64,000 nt of DNA, from NCBI RefSeq assembly GCF_002797935.1, contig NZ_PGER01000001.1, positions 4,960,001-5,024,000 of the forward strand, written 5' to 3'. A program made the translations under genes and the position numbers. Below, piece by piece: positions 26,900-34,182 of this stretch. Below the pieces are notes generated by a model. It saw nothing but the letters and a program-made list of their open reading frames with translations, was not told where the DNA came from and made no database searches. Every line of letters begins with the position of its first letter. Position 1 is the stretch's first letter. Origin of the DNA: Flavobacterium sp. 1. Its GTDB lineage: Bacteria > Bacteroidota > Bacteroidia > Flavobacteriales > Flavobacteriaceae.

Positions 26900-27448
26900 A
26901 TGATGGTCACCGAATTCCAAAAAAATTTAGATTATGTAACTGGACATAGAGCCAATAGGCAAAAATATGCCGATGAAGTCCTTAACAATCCCGAACTTTT
27001 CCCTGAGTTAATCCAACTGTGTTTTCAGATTTCGAACAAAAATTCATCCAAAGCCTATTGGATTCTGGAATTTGTATGTTACCAAAAATTGGAATGGCTT
27101 ACAGCACATTTGGATTTTTTCTGTTCTCAAATCAAAAACCTTAAAGACGAAAGTGCCATACGCCCAGTTGCCAAAATCTGCCAGCTTTTGGTATTTTCCC
27201 ATTATAAAGAAAAGAAAATAATTCTTTCCGAAAAGCATTTGGAAGAAATAACAGAAAGCTCTTTTGACTGGCTGATTAACGATACCAAAGTAGCTTGCAA
27301 AGCGTATTCGATGCGGACTTTATATCTTTTGGGAAAGCATTATGACTGGATTCATCCCGAATTAAAAATCATAATTACCAAAGATTTTCCAAATCACAGC
27401 GCTGCTTATAAGGCTGTCGCCAAAGAAGTTTTAAAGAAAATAAAATAG
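26900..27448 (+). CDS. Conserved helical protein of unknown function
   Basis: A 182-residue, helix-rich soluble protein divergent from hpt. Relatives in flavobacteria are sometimes labelled adenylosuccinate lyase, but no lyase signature is present here. The pattern of helical pairs (SKAYWILEFVCYQKLEWLTAHLDFF, KPVAKICQLLVFSHY-like, VACKAYSMRTLYLLGK) suggests a HEAT/armadillo-type repeat scaffold. The ATG at 26900 is followed by a second ATG at 26903, and the longer upstream open frame would run backward through the hpt promoter. Function unknown. Confidence 0.75.
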   Translation: MMVTEFQKNLDYVTGHRANRQKYADEVLNNPELFPELIQLCFQISNKNSSKAYWILEFVCYQKLEWLTAHLDFFCSQIKNLKDESAIRPVAKICQLLVFSHYKEKKIILSEKHLEEITESSFDWLINDTKVACKAYSMRTLYLLGKHYDWIHPELKIIITKDFPNHSAAYKAVAKEVLKKIK

Positions 27449-27487
27449 CATTTTCTACAGCCAAAAATAAGCAAAACAAAAAATATC

Positions 27488-27515
27488 CGTACATTTGTAA
27501 AAACTATACGTACAT
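27488..27515 (+). promoter_or_regulatory. Promoter/operator of the DUF6364-PIN pair
   Basis: TACATTTG at 27490-27497 is an exact TAnnTTTG match. CGTACAT occurs at 27488 and again at 27509, 21 bp apart, so one copy overlaps the -7 element. Paired boxes over the promoter fit autoregulation by a DUF6364/VapB-like antitoxin, which is inference. The start codon is about 90 bases downstream. Confidence 0.45.
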
Positions 27516-27603
27516 GAAATGAGCATGACCTTAAATTGGTTGCAAATGCCAATAAAAATATGCGAATTACATTTGACCGATAAAAAACAATAAATATCTA
27601 CAA

Positions 27604-27852
27604 ATGAATACTAAACTCACATTATCGTTAGAAAAAACCGTTATTGAAAACGCTAAATCGTATGCAAAAAAAACGGGAAGGAGTTTGTCTGAATTGGTGG
27701 AAAATTATTTCAAAAATCTTACCGAAAAGTCAGAAATACCAGATGATATACATCCAAAAGTAAAAAAACTGATTGGTAGAATTACGCTTCCACCCGATTT
27801 TGACGAAGAAAAAGTAAAAGAAGAACATTACAGAGAAAAATATGGGTTTTAA
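27604..27852 (+). CDS. DUF6364-like antitoxin (VapB-type)
   Basis: An 82-residue basic protein with a ribbon-helix-helix-like N-terminus: TKLTLSLEKTVIENAKSYAKKTGRSLSELVENYFKNL (about residues 3-39). An acidic tail (DFDEEKVKEEHYREKYGF) would wrap and block the toxin. The pattern matches the DUF6364 antitoxins paired with PIN toxins in Bacteroidota. It overlaps the PIN gene by 11 bases, supporting coupled translation. It likely represses its own promoter (27488-27515). Confidence 0.82.
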   Translation: MNTKLTLSLEKTVIENAKSYAKKTGRSLSELVENYFKNLTEKSEIPDDIHPKVKKLIGRITLPPDFDEEKVKEEHYREKYGF

Positions 27853-28264
27853 ACATATTTTTCTTGATACCAACATATTGGTTGACATTGTTGCTGACCG
27901 ATTTCCATTTTCAAAAAATGCAATTTTAATTTTCGATTATTGCCAACGGAACAAAATCAAAATGTATTCTTCATCCCATTCTATTGCTACGATGCATTAT
28001 ATAGCAAAAAGAGTAGTTGACGAAAAAGAGTTACGCTCAATTATTGAAGATTTATTAGATACCATTTCAATAATTGCTGTTACGGAATCAATTTTAAAAA
28101 AAAGCCTGAAATCCAGTCACAAAGATTTCGAAGACGCTATTCAGATTACCGCTGCACAATCAATAAATACAATGGATTGCATTATAACTAGAGATTTGAA
28201 AGATTATAAATTTTCAGAAATCAACGTTTTTACTCCAGATGAATTTTTAAATACAATAAACTAA
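27842..28264 (+). CDS. PIN domain toxin (VapC-like)
   Basis: A 140-residue PIN-domain ribonuclease. The acidic active-site residues are visible: D in FLDTNILVDIV (about residue 9), an acidic residue in DFEDAIQITAA (about 100-105) and D in CIITRDLKDYKFS (about 120). Such toxins cut tRNA or rRNA and are held off by the antitoxin encoded just upstream. Its stop codon at 28262-28264 directly abuts the purK start at 28265, so the pair sits immediately in front of purK and may drive or disturb its expression. Confidence 0.88.
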   Translation: MGFKHIFLDTNILVDIVADRFPFSKNAILIFDYCQRNKIKMYSSSHSIATMHYIAKRVVDEKELRSIIEDLLDTISIIAVTESILKKSLKSSHKDFEDAIQITAAQSINTMDCIITRDLKDYKFSEINVFTPDEFLNTIN

Positions 28265-29422
28265 ATGAACTATTTTTCATCCCATTTCAAATTAGGCATA
28301 CTCGGTGGCGGACAATTAGGCAAAATGCTGTTGTTTGACACCCGAAAATTTGACATTCAAACGTATGTACTCGATCCAAGTGACGAAGCTCCCAGCAGAA
28401 TAGCCTGTAATCATTTTTTTCAAGGTGATTTGATGGATTTTGAAACGGTTTACAATTTTGGAAAACAAGTAGATGTTTTGACTTTCGAAATTGAATTAGT
28501 GAATCTTGATGCATTGGAAAAATTGGAAAACGAAGGCAAAAAAGTATATCCTTCGCCAAAAACGCTGAAATTGATTCAGAACAAAGGCATTCAGAAAGAT
28601 TTTTATATCAAAAACAATATCCCAACAGCTCCTTTTAAAAGATATGCCACTTTAAAAGACTTGGTGGTTGATTTAGTAGAATCTAATATTCAACTTCCTT
28701 TTGTATGGAAATGTACCGAATTTGGATACGATGGCAACGGTGTAAAAGTCATCAGACAAACATCTGATTTGGAAAATTTACCAAATGTAGAGTGCATTGC
28801 CGAAACGATGATTCCTTTCAAGAACGAATTGGCCGTAATTGTATGCCGCAATCCGCAGGGAGAAATAAAAACATATCCTGTAGTTGAAATGGAGTTTCAC
28901 CCCGAAGCCAATCAGGTTGAATATGTTATCTGCCCTGCTCGAATAGACGACAAAGTGGCCGAAAAAGCCAGAGCGATTGCATTAAATGTTTCTCAGCAAT
29001 TTAATCATGTTGGTCTTTTAGCAGTTGAAATGTTTCAAACCGAAGATGATGAAATCCTAGTAAACGAAGTTGCTCCACGCCCTCATAATTCAGGTCATTT
29101 CTCAATTGAAGCCAGCTTTACTTCACAATTTGAAAACCATTTGCGTGCCATTCTAGACTTACCTCTTGGAAACACCGACAGTAAAGTGGCAGGAATTATG
29201 GTAAACTTAGTGGGAGCCGAAGGTTTTTCGGGAGATGTCATTTATGAAAACATTGAGAAAATATTAGGCTGGAATGGAGTTACCCCTCACATTTACGGCA
29301 AGAAAGAAACCCGCCCTTTTAGAAAAATGGGACATGTCACGATTGTTAATGAAGATATAAACGAAGCGAGAAGGATTGCCGAGGATGTGAAGAATACGAT
29401 TAGGGTGATTAGTGTTCAGTAG
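28265..29422 (+). CDS. purK: 5-(carboxyamino)imidazole ribonucleotide synthase
   Basis: A 385-residue ATP-grasp enzyme that carboxylates AIR to N5-CAIR using ATP and bicarbonate in de novo purine synthesis. Motifs: LGILGGGQLGKMLL at the N-terminus, then VWKCTEFGYDGNGVKVI (ATP-grasp loop), AVIVCRNPQGE, and VNEVAPRPHNSGHFSIEASFTSQFENHLRAI. Full length is conserved. Unusually, its usual partner purE is 1.95 kb away because an ATPase/HNH-like pair lies between, and the PIN toxin gene ends exactly at its start. Confidence 0.96.
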   Translation: MNYFSSHFKLGILGGGQLGKMLLFDTRKFDIQTYVLDPSDEAPSRIACNHFFQGDLMDFETVYNFGKQVDVLTFEIELVNLDALEKLENEGKKVYPSPKTLKLIQNKGIQKDFYIKNNIPTAPFKRYATLKDLVVDLVESNIQLPFVWKCTEFGYDGNGVKVIRQTSDLENLPNVECIAETMIPFKNELAVIVCRNPQGEIKTYPVVEMEFHPEANQVEYVICPARIDDKVAEKARAIALNVSQQFNHVGLLAVEMFQTEDDEILVNEVAPRPHNSGHFSIEASFTSQFENHLRAILDLPLGNTDSKVAGIMVNLVGAEGFSGDVIYENIEKILGWNGVTPHIYGKKETRPFRKMGHVTIVNEDINEARRIAEDVKNTIRVISVQ

Positions 29423-29459
29423 GCAATATTCAGTAAAATAATTAGTAAATTAATTTTGC

Positions 29460-29467
29460 TAAATTTG
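29460..29467 (+). promoter_or_regulatory. -7 promoter element of the ATPase/HNH pair
   Basis: TAAATTTG is an exact TAnnTTTG match, 15 bases before the ATPase start codon. The inserted pair therefore seems to carry its own promoter rather than relying only on purK read-through. Confidence 0.5.
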
Positions 29468-29481
29468 TAAAAAACCAATAA

Positions 29482-30762
29482 ATGAAAATCTCCAAATTAC
29501 ATATCGATCAGTTTAGACATTTAGAAAATCTAGATTTTGATTTTACGTATCAAAGTGGCGAACGCAAAGGTCAGCCTTTGGATAAGATATGTTTTATTGG
29601 ACAAAGTGCCACTGGGAAAACTAGTTTATTGGAGTTGATTAAAGAACAACACATTGCAGTAAACAACACTATAGTAATTGATAATTTTTTTTCATATAAA
29701 AGTGGTATAGAAATAATAAACGGAAGTGTTACTTTTAATTTAAACAATAATTCATTTGAAATTAATAATGAAAAATTAAATTATAAAAACAACACATTCA
29801 AATATATAGTATCGGGTAGTTTTTCGAATTTATTAACCGAAGAGGAAAAAAAATATCTTTATTATTTTAAAGCTAATTTAATTTCCGACAAAAACATTGA
29901 TCTTTTTACAAAAAACCCAATTGACTTATTTGAAAAACATCCAGGATTAAACGACAAATTCAATTTCAACAACTTCTATTCCAAAGAAAATTCTGTTATT
30001 TTTGACGATACCGTTGAATCTGATTTATGGCTAGTTTTACTGAAGGAAATTTTGCAATATAGAAAAAAATTCAACCAAAAAATGTCAGATTTAATCCACA
30101 AAGGGTTATTAGCAAATCAAAAAAAGTTGAGCGCTGAATTTGAAAAATGGCAGAAGGAAAATCCTAACAAGTTGGAACTATTTGCAGAAAAATTAAATCC
30201 CATCTTAGAAAAATTAAATTTAGAAGTTGATGTTTTTAACACAGAATATTCCATTCCAATAAAGAACAAAAGAACAGATGAAATAATTCCAATCCAAAAT
30301 ACAAGCACAGGAACAAAAGGGTTATTATTATCGTTTTTACCCTTATTCAAACTAGACACAAAAGACTCCATTATTTTAATTGACGAACCAGAACGTTCCT
30401 TGTATCCTGATATGCAAATGGATTTAATGGATCATTACAAGCGATTAGCTACCGAAGCACAATTTATTGTTGCTACTCATTCTCCATTTATTGCTGCATC
30501 GTTTGAACCGGACGAAAGATTTATTTTGTATTTTGATGAAGAAGGAAAAGTAGCCGTGCGAAGAGGAAGTTCTCCAATTGGTGATGACCCGAATGATATG
30601 CTTTATAACGATTTTGGAATTGATTATATAAATAAATATGGTAAAAAAGTCTATAATGAATATCTTGAAAAGAGAAGACAATTGCTATTTGAAAAAAATG
30701 AAGAAGTAAAACAAAAACTTCAAAACGAAATTGAGTCTATTGGAGATAAATATAATTTTTAA
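29482..30762 (+). CDS. AAA/ABC-type ATPase, Septu (PtuA)-like
   Basis: A 426-residue RecF/SMC-like ATPase. It opens with KISKLHIDQFRHLENLDFDF, typical of OLD/RecF-type proteins. Walker A is GQSATGKTSLLEL (residues about 40-52), the signature region is NTSTGTKGLLLSFLPLF, Walker B is SIILIDEPERSLYPD (D301-E302) and the H-loop is VATHSP (H333). The 4-base gap to the HNH-like gene marks one operon. ATPase plus HNH pairs are the composition of Septu anti-phage systems. It lies between purK and purE with its own promoter, in DNA that is more AT-rich than its neighbours. Anti-phage function is inferred from the pairing. Confidence 0.78.
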   Translation: MKISKLHIDQFRHLENLDFDFTYQSGERKGQPLDKICFIGQSATGKTSLLELIKEQHIAVNNTIVIDNFFSYKSGIEIINGSVTFNLNNNSFEINNEKLNYKNNTFKYIVSGSFSNLLTEEEKKYLYYFKANLISDKNIDLFTKNPIDLFEKHPGLNDKFNFNNFYSKENSVIFDDTVESDLWLVLLKEILQYRKKFNQKMSDLIHKGLLANQKKLSAEFEKWQKENPNKLELFAEKLNPILEKLNLEVDVFNTEYSIPIKNKRTDEIIPIQNTSTGTKGLLLSFLPLFKLDTKDSIILIDEPERSLYPDMQMDLMDHYKRLATEAQFIVATHSPFIAASFEPDERFILYFDEEGKVAVRRGSSPIGDDPNDMLYNDFGIDYINKYGKKVYNEYLEKRRQLLFEKNEEVKQKLQNEIESIGDKYNF

Positions 30763-30765
30763 TGA

Positions 30766-31359
30766 ATGAAAAGAGTTTTAAAATCTTCAACTTCTCAAAT
30801 TATTTCTGATAATCTAACTTATAAATCCAATCGAGATAATTCTAAATTGGGTACAATTCTTCTAAAAGAACAAAAAGGATTTTGTGCCTATACAGAACAC
30901 TATATTGGATATGATGATGCGAATGATATTGAACATTTTAACCCAAATTTAAAAGACCAGCTACAAGATGATTATTACAATTGGTATAAAGTCAAACATC
31001 TTCCTAATCAAAGAAAAACAAATAACTGGGTAGAGCCAATATTAATGCCTTATGCAGAAGATTTTGAAAGTAGAGTTATCTATTCTGATGGCGAATATTT
31101 TGCAAAACCAAATGACGATGAAGCTAATAATCTAATTATCCTATTAGACTTAAATAATCAAAAAAGAGTTGAAGACAGAAAAAACTACATAAAGCGAAGA
31201 AGAGAATCAATAAATGACAGAAAACTTCAAACAGATATAGAGATAAAAAAATATTTTCAAGACAAAATTGATAACGAAATTAAATCAATATCCTATTTAA
31301 GAGCCATTCAAGAAGAATTCAAAATAAACATTTGGGAGATGATTCCAGAACCACAATAA
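30766..31359 (+). CDS. HNH-like nuclease, Septu (PtuB)-like partner
   Basis: A 197-residue protein. KEQKGFCAYTEHYIGYDDANDIEHFNPNLKD (residues about 33-63) matches the core of TIGR02646/retron-type HNH nucleases (G-x-C-A-Y-C-E … I-E-H-F-x-P), with the invariant EHF intact. The zinc cysteines are largely missing: CAYT where CAYC is usual, and VKHLPNQRKT where C-x-x-C-N-x-x-K is usual. So it is either a divergent or a zinc-free member. It starts 4 bases after the ATPase stop and ends 13 bases before purE. A nuclease role is inferred from the motif. Confidence 0.7.
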   Translation: MKRVLKSSTSQIISDNLTYKSNRDNSKLGTILLKEQKGFCAYTEHYIGYDDANDIEHFNPNLKDQLQDDYYNWYKVKHLPNQRKTNNWVEPILMPYAEDFESRVIYSDGEYFAKPNDDEANNLIILLDLNNQKRVEDRKNYIKRRRESINDRKLQTDIEIKKYFQDKIDNEIKSISYLRAIQEEFKINIWEMIPEPQ

Positions 31360-31372
31360 ATATAACAAACAA

Positions 31373-31858
31373 ATGAGCAAAGTAGCCATCATAATGGGAA
31401 GCATTTCAGACATGCCAGTCATGCAGGATGCCATAGACATTTTAAAAGGATTTGATATAGCTGTAGAAGTCGATATTGTTTCGGCACACAGAACACCGGA
31501 AAAATTATTTGATTTCAGCAAAAACGCCCATACTCGTGGAATCTCGGTAATAATTGCTGGAGCTGGCGGTGCAGCGCATTTGCCAGGAATGGTGGCGTCA
31601 ATGTCTCCTCTTCCTGTAATTGGAGTTCCTGTAAAATCAAGTAATTCTATTGACGGATGGGACAGCGTTTTATCTATCTTACAAATGCCTGGAGGCGTTC
31701 CTGTAGCAACTGTAGCCTTAAATGGAGCTAAAAATGCCGGAATCCTTGCTGCTCAAATTATTGGCAGTGCCGACAAAACAATTTTAGATAAAATCATTTC
31801 TTACAAAGATGGTCTTAAAGAAGCTGTTTACAAATCTTCTGAAAATTTGAATAAATAA
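31373..31858 (+). CDS. purE: 5-(carboxyamino)imidazole ribonucleotide mutase
   Basis: A 161-residue class I PurE that converts N5-CAIR to CAIR in purine synthesis. Motifs: VAIIMGSISDMPVMQDA at the N-terminus (phosphate loop), SAHRTPEKLFDFSKNA, then VIIAGAGGAAHLPGMVASMSPLPVIGVPV and VPVATVALNGAKNAGILA. The C-terminal tail is normal. It is normally co-transcribed with purK; here it is 13 bases downstream of the HNH-like gene, so expression likely now depends on that inserted operon or on read-through from purK. A strong terminator follows. Confidence 0.96.
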   Translation: MSKVAIIMGSISDMPVMQDAIDILKGFDIAVEVDIVSAHRTPEKLFDFSKNAHTRGISVIIAGAGGAAHLPGMVASMSPLPVIGVPVKSSNSIDGWDSVLSILQMPGGVPVATVALNGAKNAGILAAQIIGSADKTILDKIISYKDGLKEAVYKSSENLNK

Positions 31859-31888
31859 AAAAAGCTCCTAAAAAATGGAGCTTTTTTT
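31857..31888 (+). terminator. Intrinsic terminator after purE
   Basis: Stem AAAAAAAGCTCC / GGAGCTTTTTTT with an A/T loop overlaps the purE stop region. It ends the purK-ATPase-HNH-purE run. The following 265 bases to 32154 hold no gene that I can see. Confidence 0.88.
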
Positions 31889-32154
31889 GATATTGTAAAA
31901 TTCTAAACTTGGGGGAGTTTAATTTTATCAATATCATAGTGGTATTTAATATAAATTTCTTTTGCGATTTGGGGACAAAAAGAGTTTTAATTTCTGGCTG
32001 AATTAACTTAGTGTTAACTAATTATTCGGCAAAAGTATACAAATAATCGATTAAATACACGCTTTTTTAAGATTTTAACATATTTTACTTATTTTTAGCC
32101 TTTACACAAAACTTTTTACGGTCAATCATTTGAGATAAAACAGAACAAATAATT

Positions 32155-34182
32155 ATGAATATATTACTACAAAAATTTGACACCAAGCTAGATACTGCGC
32201 CCTTTTCAAAGATAAATAACGAAGATTATCTTCCTGCTTTTCAAGAAGCAATTGTCCTAGCCAAAGCTGAAATTGACGCCATTGTCAACAATACAGAAAA
32301 TCCTACTTTTGAGAATACAATTGAAACTTTATCTTTCAGCGGAGATACTTTAGACCGAATCTCAAGCATCTTTTTTAATCTAAACTCGGCTGAAACGAGT
32401 GATGAAATGCAAAAAATTGCTCAAGAAGTTTCTCCTTTATTATCTGAATTTGGAAATGATGTTACATTAAACGCAGATTTATTTGCAAGAGTTAAAACTG
32501 TTTATGAGCAAAGAAATTCTTTGACCTTAAATCCTGAACAAAAGACACTTTTAGACAAGCAATATAAAAGTTTTTCCAGAAATGGAGCAAATTTAGCTGA
32601 GGAAAAAAAGAACCAGCTTAGAGAAATTGACAAAGAATTATCAAAGTTGAATTTGCAATTTGGTGAAAATGTTTTGGCAGAAACCAATGCTTTCGAATTG
32701 CATTTAACTGATGAAAAGGATTTAGCAGGATTGCCGGAAGGTACAATCGAAGCCGCTCATTCATTAGCAAAAGCTCAAGAAAAAGAAGGCTGGATTTTTA
32801 CTTTAGATCACCCAAGTTATATTCCGTTTGTGACTTATGCAGACAACCGTGAATTGCGTAAAAAAATGGCTATTGCTTTTGGAGCCAGATGTTTTCAAAA
32901 AAACGAATTTGACAATCAGGAAATTGTTTTAAAAATTGCTAAACTGCGTTTTGAAAGAGCCAATCTTTTGGGTTATAAAACTCACGCTCATTTTGTTCTT
33001 GAAGAGCGAATGGCAGAAAGTCCAGAGAAAGTGTTATCCTTTTCCAATGATTTATTAGCTAAAGCCAAACCAGCTGCACAAAAAGAATTTGAACAATTAT
33101 CGGCTTTCGCCAAAGAACTTGATGGCATCGAACAGCTTGAAAAATGGGACGGTGCTTATTATTCAGAAAAATTGAAACAGCAATTGTTCAATCTGGATGA
33201 TGAAAAATTGAAACCGTATTTCCAATTGGAGAAAGTATTGAATGGCGCTTTTACTATTGCTGGAAAACTGTACGGACTAACTTTTAACGAAGTTTTCGAT
33301 ATCGACAAATACCATGAAGAAGTTACCACTTATGAAGTAACTGATAAAAACAACGAATTGGTCGCTGTTTTCTACGCCGATTTCTTTCCGAGAAAAGGCA
33401 AACGAAACGGTGCCTGGATGACTTCTTTCAAATCGCAATACATAAAAGACGGCAAAAACGAAAGACCGCATATTTCTAATGTCTGCAACTTTACAAAACC
33501 AACCGAAACCAAACCCTCACTTTTGACATTTAACGAAGTGACGACTTTGTTTCATGAATTTGGTCACGGATTGCACGGAATGTTAGCCGATACCGTTTAC
33601 CCAAACCTTTCGGGAACATCGGTTTATTGGGATTTTGTGGAATTACCAAGCCAGATTATGGAAAACTGGTGTTACGAACCAGAAGCTTTGGCTCTATTTG
33701 CACATCATTATGAAACCGGTGAAGTGATCCCACAGGAATATGTAGAAAAAATCAAAGAAAGTGCCAGTTTCCAAGAAGGTTTGGCAACAATGCGCCAATT
33801 GAGTTTTGGATTATTGGATATGGCTTGGCACGGACAAGATCCAACGAATATTACTGACATAAAATCTTTTGAAACCGAACAATTTGCTTCGACACAATTA
33901 TATCCTGATGTAAAAGAAAACGCAATGAGTACCGCTTTTTCACATATTTTTCAAGGAGGCTATTCTTCTGGATATTACAGTTACAAATGGGCAGAAGTTC
34001 TCGATGCAGACGCATTTGATTATTTCCTGGAAGAAGGAATATTTAATACTGAAGTAGCCGAAAAATTCAAAGAAAATGTACTTTCCAAAGGCGGAACGGA
34101 ACATCCTATGCTATTGTACAAACGTTTTAGAGGGCAGGAACCAAAACCAGATGCTTTATTGAAGAGAGCGGGATTGTTATAG
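32155..34182 (+). CDS. M3 family metallopeptidase (oligopeptidase A / Dcp type)
   Basis: A 675-residue zinc peptidase. The catalytic site is H467-E-F-G-H471 in TLFHEFGHGLHGMLAD, with the M3 continuation SGTSVYWDFVELPSQIMENW (third zinc ligand Glu) and the substrate-pocket loop FSHIFQGGYSSGYYSYKWAEVLDAD. The N-terminal helical domain (about 1-230) is complete. No signal peptide is seen, so it is cytoplasmic and likely degrades short peptides. Oligopeptidase A and dipeptidyl carboxypeptidase assignments cannot be separated here. Confidence 0.93.
   Translation: MNILLQKFDTKLDTAPFSKINNEDYLPAFQEAIVLAKAEIDAIVNNTENPTFENTIETLSFSGDTLDRISSIFFNLNSAETSDEMQKIAQEVSPLLSEFGNDVTLNADLFARVKTVYEQRNSLTLNPEQKTLLDKQYKSFSRNGANLAEEKKNQLREIDKELSKLNLQFGENVLAETNAFELHLTDEKDLAGLPEGTIEAAHSLAKAQEKEGWIFTLDHPSYIPFVTYADNRELRKKMAIAFGARCFQKNEFDNQEIVLKIAKLRFERANLLGYKTHAHFVLEERMAESPEKVLSFSNDLLAKAKPAAQKEFEQLSAFAKELDGIEQLEKWDGAYYSEKLKQQLFNLDDEKLKPYFQLEKVLNGAFTIAGKLYGLTFNEVFDIDKYHEEVTTYEVTDKNNELVAVFYADFFPRKGKRNGAWMTSFKSQYIKDGKNERPHISNVCNFTKPTETKPSLLTFNEVTTLFHEFGHGLHGMLADTVYPNLSGTSVYWDFVELPSQIMENWCYEPEALALFAHHYETGEVIPQEYVEKIKESASFQEGLATMRQLSFGLLDMAWHGQDPTNITDIKSFETEQFASTQLYPDVKENAMSTAFSHIFQGGYSSGYYSYKWAEVLDADAFDYFLEEGIFNTEVAEKFKENVLSKGGTEHPMLLYKRFRGQEPKPDALLKRAGLL

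Follow-up and report, generated by a model that had tools for sequence, protein, structure and literature searches.

A probable multi-allelic Septu (PtuAB) anti-phage locus at the purK-purE junction of Flavobacterium, with separately swapped modules

The junction between purK and purE in Flavobacterium probably holds a multi-allelic Septu (PtuAB) anti-phage locus, fixed at this place, whose modules have been swapped separately from one another. For a fuller reading the chances seem about even, namely that this is a combinatorial innate-immune locus in which a sensing domain and a unit of docking tail plus nuclease are reassorted among Flavobacterium lineages at purK-purE, by recombination across conserved stretches of the ATPase, with a zinc-free HNH protein as effector. 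The proteins are of known families; what appears new is a constant site at which modules are exchanged separately. Among the literature matches listed (titles and abstract openings) there was no description of a purK-purE Septu locus, which does not prove its absence from print.

The pair and its nuclease

In the window, the whole 64,000-nucleotide stretch of Flavobacterium sp. 1 DNA that was analysed, purK (28265-29422, Pfam ATP-grasp and PurK_C; the left flank), ptuA (29482-30762, 426 aa), ptuB (30766-31359, 197 aa) and purE (31373-31858, Pfam AIRC; the right flank) follow one another on the forward strand. A sequence-only reading of this DNA had the coordinates and gene order right and gave the ptuA-ptuB gap as four bases, where three are measured (30763-30765); purE starts 13 bp past ptuB. 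Immediately 5' of purK, at 27604-28264, lies a pair of genes for a DUF6364 (RHH-type) and a PIN-domain protein by Pfam, likely a toxin-antitoxin module. This pair is patchy in relatives, being found in G105, G178, G675, G733, G749 and DG2-3, in part in G614 (at the locus end), and also in G167, whose purK-purE site is empty.

Profiles and predicted folds alike identify the two genes flanked by purK and purE as Septu. PtuA, an ABC/RecF-like ATPase, scores 574.6 bits against the PADLOC model PDLC00274 over residues 1-426 and the neighbouring PtuB 289 bits against the PADLOC PtuB model (the models of the pair being PDLC00274 and PDLC00347), and the AlphaFold models of both proteins match solved PtuA and PtuB structures in a fold comparison. 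The latter was required because a profile sequence search with PtuB against the PDB gave a chance match only and phmmer gave weak matches only. Residues 364-384 of the PtuA model, covering the tail start, are of low confidence. In NCBIfam PtuB stays below the cut-offs of the retron-type family TIGR02646 (25.9 bits against 52.15) and of NF041761 (30.4 bits against 150). PtuA bears a Walker A, an STGTK signature, a Walker B and an H-loop; the signature is identical in 32 of 32 loci, the H-loop reads ATHSPF in 31, Walker B reads LIDEPE in 28 and Walker A reads GQSATGKT in 27, the remaining five differing at one position. The Walker A, Walker B and H-loop motifs of the earlier reading are thus present and conserved over the 32 loci, its Septu assignment is upheld by the profiles and folds, and the second protein proves to be structurally an HNH PtuB and not something unrelated to such nucleases. 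Its further idea of a divergent or new defence subtype does not hold at the level of the proteins, both of which fit the existing PADLOC models.

The cysteines of PtuB deserve separate treatment. A CxxC zinc motif is usual in PtuB, that of retron Ec78 carrying CAYC. The window's PtuB has a single cysteine (C40) and no CxxC, so that the zinc cysteines said earlier to be mostly missing from the HNH partner are indeed so. CxxC is found in none of the 32 loci and in none of 120 PtuB relatives among the matches listed (own protein included; 384 passed the search), of which 85 have one cysteine, 34 two and one three. Throughout the relatives seen, then, and beyond the window's strain alone, the motif is absent from the sequences. 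PtuB of G079 and G1023 has four cysteines and that of G751 and G675 three, in other arrangements, and these may form an alternative metal site. The HNH catalytic His and Asn are kept: H57 and N81, the candidate catalytic pair, are invariant in 29 of 29 loci and in a 47-sequence alignment, and C40, Y42, K77 and K84 are likewise invariant in the 29 loci. In a weak alignment to retron Ec78 PtuB, N81 stands opposite an Asp. H57/N81 were equated by motif, and not by alignment, with the H75/N91 given in the available part of PMC13096335. Judged by sequence, a PtuB group without the zinc motif appears new, and such a family raises the question of what holds the HNH core together.

The cassette seems to carry its own promoter element. 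The box TAAATTTG (29460-29467, forward strand), of a type which we take to be the Bacteroidota −7 consensus, ends 14 nt 5' of the ptuA ATG, and the −7 element ascribed to the pair beforehand is real in that the pattern TAnnTTTG recurs in 27 of 30 loci, 13-15 nt upstream of where ptuA begins (it is missing in G700, G718 and DG2-3), these loci being related and the 27 occurrences not independent. The pattern is found in none of six empty purK-purE spacers and in none of the 30 ptuB-purE spacers, several of which are only 6-13 bp long; the G160 spacer, with a gene remnant, has one box, TATTTTTG, 109 nt upstream of purE. Read-through from ptuAB into purE is plausible from this arrangement.

A near-constant place in the genome

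Two overlapping sets of Flavobacterium genomes were surveyed, 199 searched with PtuB and a larger one of 398 with a 24-row profile. Among the matches listed for the 199, purK and purE could be paired in 125 genomes, and in 115 of these the gap is 10-845 bp, confirming their usual adjacency; in the other 10 it is 1953-2198 bp, and all 10 hold ptuA-ptuB. The site is empty in five close relatives of the window's genome, whose purK is 94-96% identical, and tblastn at E 1e-3 matched no ptuAB remnant in any of 27 junctions whose gaps measure 222-845 bp. The empty spacers of close relatives (L157-L162) show by eye AT-rich, palindrome-like stretches that differ between genomes, possibly small repeats.

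In the set of 398 (threshold E 1e-6) PtuB was matched in 34 genomes and not in 364. In 28 of the 34 the pair separates purK from purE and shares their strand; it is intact in 27, and in G042 ptuB is frameshifted. The remaining six comprise G160 and G694, in which only a C-terminal ptuB remnant adjoins purE, G131, with an intact pair in another housekeeping gene row, flanked by a ribBA-type gene and a gene for an M20 peptidase (L092 8121-10024), G148, with a match at a contig edge, and G102 and G692, with other PtuB types at other places. The pair is again at purK-purE in three Flavobacterium genomes out of 395 sampled across the order, in Flavobacterium sp. DG2-3 and, in a family-wide sample (397 genomes, E 1e-8), besides the window's own, in a single genome of another genus, G404, with a purK of 73% identity. 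Remnants excluded, 33 of 34 context-readable loci are at purK-purE. The spacer before ptuA is 29-124 bp, G056 (278 bp) and G097 (1028 bp) excepted, and that between ptuB and purE 6-98 bp. None of the distant PtuB types (G102, G186, G692 and a second one in G718) adjoins purK or purE within the stretches examined; G937, from another family of the order, gave a weak match of 38.9 bits, and the initial match in G029 was due to chance, its stretch holding neither ptuA nor ptuB. The pair is not a genus-wide feature of vertical descent but patchy, and was not inherited along with its flanks.

Other small cargo is found at the same junction. In four genomes, G028, G152, G025 and G145 (L152, L153, L154 and L156), ptuAB is replaced by a PemK/MazF-like toxin and a small partner that resembles an antitoxin and matches no Pfam family, so the junction is a site for small cargo and accepts unrelated genes. 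In G056 a remnant of the antitoxin-like gene (29 residues, 76% identical; L084 9405-9491) lies between purK and ptuA, from which the two cargoes may have shared the site. A thioredoxin-like (AhpC/TSA) gene stands in the junction in G065 (L155 457-1266) and in G097 (L087 5202-6059), in the latter ahead of ptuA and within the 1028-bp spacer.

The tie to purine metabolism proposed in the sequence-only reading holds for location only. It can be framed as an explanation in its own right: PtuAB would read the ATP or purine level, its position would give co-expression with purK and purE, and selection would keep it there. The near-constancy of the location speaks for this, as does the binding of ATP by Septu-type PtuA, an ATP-bound retron PtuAB complex being among the structure matches, and Li and colleagues are said to have found in 2024 that ATP inhibits PtuAB cleavage. 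Against it, most loci show a promoter-like box belonging to the cassette itself, the great majority of genus genomes do without any match, the PemK/MazF-like pairs occupy the same junction, and the G131 pair lies elsewhere. On account of the last two, purine sensing was set aside as the main explanation, and it seems unlikely.

Separate histories of the modules

Pairwise protein identities were correlated over 32 loci (G042, G160 and G131 left out), with p values by permutation, the variable domain of PtuA being taken here as residues 55-245 and its tail as 380-426. The flanks go together (purK against purE, rho 0.80), and purK follows neither the variable domain (−0.03) nor PtuB (−0.10). The tail goes with PtuB (0.83), and the variable domain with neither PtuB (0.10, p 0.17) nor the tail (0.06, p 0.30). 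Positive controls within genes gave 0.76 for the halves of PtuB (0.60 for its outer quarters), 0.87 for the halves of the variable domain and 0.89 for those of purK. When loci are left out one at a time the tail-PtuB value stays at 0.80-0.85 and that of the variable domain with PtuB at 0.05-0.17, and omitting the four most divergent loci alters the correlations little. Weak links remain between whole PtuA and PtuB (0.23, p 0.02) and PtuA and purE (0.33, p 0.02) in 29 loci, and between the PtuA core and purE (0.26, p 0.04) in 32.

A scan of PtuA in 15-residue windows, whose borders set those of the modules, places these histories along the protein. Residues 1-15 track purK (0.69). Residues 46-285 (29617-30336) form a variable, sensor-like module, the windows of which correlate with the reference 90-160 at rho 0.42-0.85 (those inside 90-160 overlap the reference), with PtuB at 0.00 to 0.22 and with purK at −0.16 to 0.12; PtuA is least conserved here, at 61-120 and 151-180. 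Residues 301-360 (30382-30561), from Walker B to the H-loop, are a conserved anchor between the two modules, with a median identity of 73-93% per window over the 32 loci. The C-terminal tail, residues 376-426 (30607-30759), covaries with PtuB at rho 0.50-0.84. Clustering at thresholds of the authors' choice (50% for the variable domain, 70% for PtuB) gave 17 variable-domain types and 9 PtuB types in 25 combinations among the 32 loci.

Single pairs of loci illustrate the same. G786 and G626, sisters on the flank tree (support 100), have purK at 98%, PtuA at 64% and PtuB at 49% identity, and in their ptuA genes DNA identity falls from 97% to 65% between successive 100-base windows at about codon 375. 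For G153 and G178 the values are 98%, 61% and 47%; G705 and G739 have PtuA at 81% and PtuB at 59%, and G079 and G751 the reverse, with PtuB at 90% and PtuA at 63%. Overall three blocks, the flanks, the variable domain with the mid-ATPase, and the tail with PtuB, have largely separate histories.

Trees, which were quick ones with several forks open, were set beside these figures. On the flank tree the window's genome (G000) falls with G056 and the five empty genomes (support 100, inner order unsettled), G000 and G056 being the only pair-bearing members of that clade. The PtuB tree places G000 in a clade with G105, G705 and DG2-3 (SH-aLRT 99). In AU tests of groups picked after the identities had been inspected, this grouping is rejected by the flanks (p 7e-51) and by PtuA (p 0.0024), and PtuB rejects G000+G056 (p 3e-5) and G153+G178 (p 2e-7), the last test being less telling as that pair are not sisters on the flank tree. 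Two groupings escape rejection, G079+G751 by the flanks (p 0.19) and G000+G056 by PtuA (p 0.59). For the second of these the constrained tree even beats that of the quick search, which indicates that not every piece of the alleles has been exchanged and that the quick trees are imperfect.

These data bear on a reading in which a single insertion was inherited vertically, with fast diversifying selection, many losses and no exchange between lineages. It would fit the fact that 33 loci, one of them from another genus, share their site, strand and order of genes, the remnants in G160 and G694 do show loss, and PtuA tolerates G000+G056 as just described. What tells against it is that G000 has PtuB at 84-87% to G105, G705 and DG2-3 though their purK is just 86-88%, and that G056, of the same flank clade as G000, has purK at 96% and PtuB at 59%; to this are added the conflict of PtuB with the flanks in the AU tests and a purK that tracks neither the PtuA variable domain nor PtuB. 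Purely vertical descent is accordingly very improbable. Hardly better placed is a mobile element with strong site preference inserting ptuAB at purK-purE, which the same site in G404 and the other small cargo would suit, for the spacers (bar G056 and G097) could hardly accommodate an integrase or transposase, and insertion of a whole element would not account for exchange within ptuA. Carriage by phages, plasmids or viruses was rejected as well: no relative was matched in 50,697 phage records, in 72,556 plasmid records or among viral contigs, where eleven stretches matched a pattern and none encoded a relative.

Proposed working and relation to known systems

For the multi-allelic locus with separately swapped modules, the following working can be proposed. 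Homologous recombination would bring in alleles by way of purK, the conserved N-terminus of PtuA, its conserved Walker B/H-loop segment and purE. Identity profiles make this the probable exchange route, purK and purE probably acting as recombination arms. Because the flanks of G404 are too diverged for easy recombination with Flavobacterium, long-standing presence or insertion with a preference for this site may play a part as well. Covariation suggests that the variable domain, between Walker A and the ABC signature, would recognise infection and that the tail would dock the cognate PtuB. When a phage infects, PtuB would be released or licensed by the assembled ATPase and would then cut nucleic acid, halting phage growth at the cell's expense. 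The available text of PMC13096335 describes a Septu of E. coli that cuts tRNA-Tyr and depends on both active sites, and in that of PMC11555353 retron-Eco7 PtuAB depletes tRNA-Tyr; since one of these sources also cites another Septu as a cutter of nicked DNA, the target of defence here could be host tRNA or DNA.

The trigger of Septu is unsettled in the literature examined, and the shuffling supplies candidate borders for a sensor (PtuA 46-285) and a PtuB dock (376-426). Natural pairs with near-identical flanks and differing modules, such as G786 and G626, are ready-made comparisons for this.

Several known systems resemble the locus in part. PARIS (AriA/AriB) has as its effector AriB, a Toprim nuclease in the portion of PMC11455837 available, where the second gene here is an HNH PtuB, which separates the two. 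Type I-A retrons (Ec78/Eco7, Ec83) share the PtuA and PtuB effector folds and have a reverse transcriptase and an msr-msd RNA next to ptuAB. A retron was rejected here, as no reverse transcriptase is among the ORFs of 27000-34000 (the larger forward-strand ones being the DUF6364/PIN pair, purK, ptuA, ptuB, purE, a Peptidase_M3 gene and a 270-aa ORF with no Pfam match) and no Rfam RNA matches in 27000-33000. The P. aeruginosa cDHS1 and cDHS2 hotspots likewise keep their defence genes at a set position flanked by core genes, but cDHS1 contains a mixture of systems and ranges from 1 to 224 kb (median 26 kb), as opposed to a single system of 1.9 kb here, present in many alleles within a pair of housekeeping genes (PMC10250203, as far as available). 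The discussion in that source proposes homologous recombination through the flanks as a possible transfer route, and a constant site trading alleles is evidence for this route, proposed and not shown there for core defence hotspots.

Compared with Septu in the form of PADLOC PtuA1/PtuB1, the locus differs in a PtuB lacking the CxxC motif (zinc-site cysteines of classical HNH proteins are not required by the family name), in its near-constant chromosomal site and perhaps also in the separate exchange of the PtuA variable domain and of the tail with PtuB. In type I restriction-modification the specificity domains of hsdS are exchanged at a fixed locus and the motor part is kept. Domain exchange at a fixed site is thus common to hsdS alleles and to the purK-purE locus, with the differences that here the variable part lies in an ABC ATPase and that the nuclease and the tail make up a second unit of exchange.
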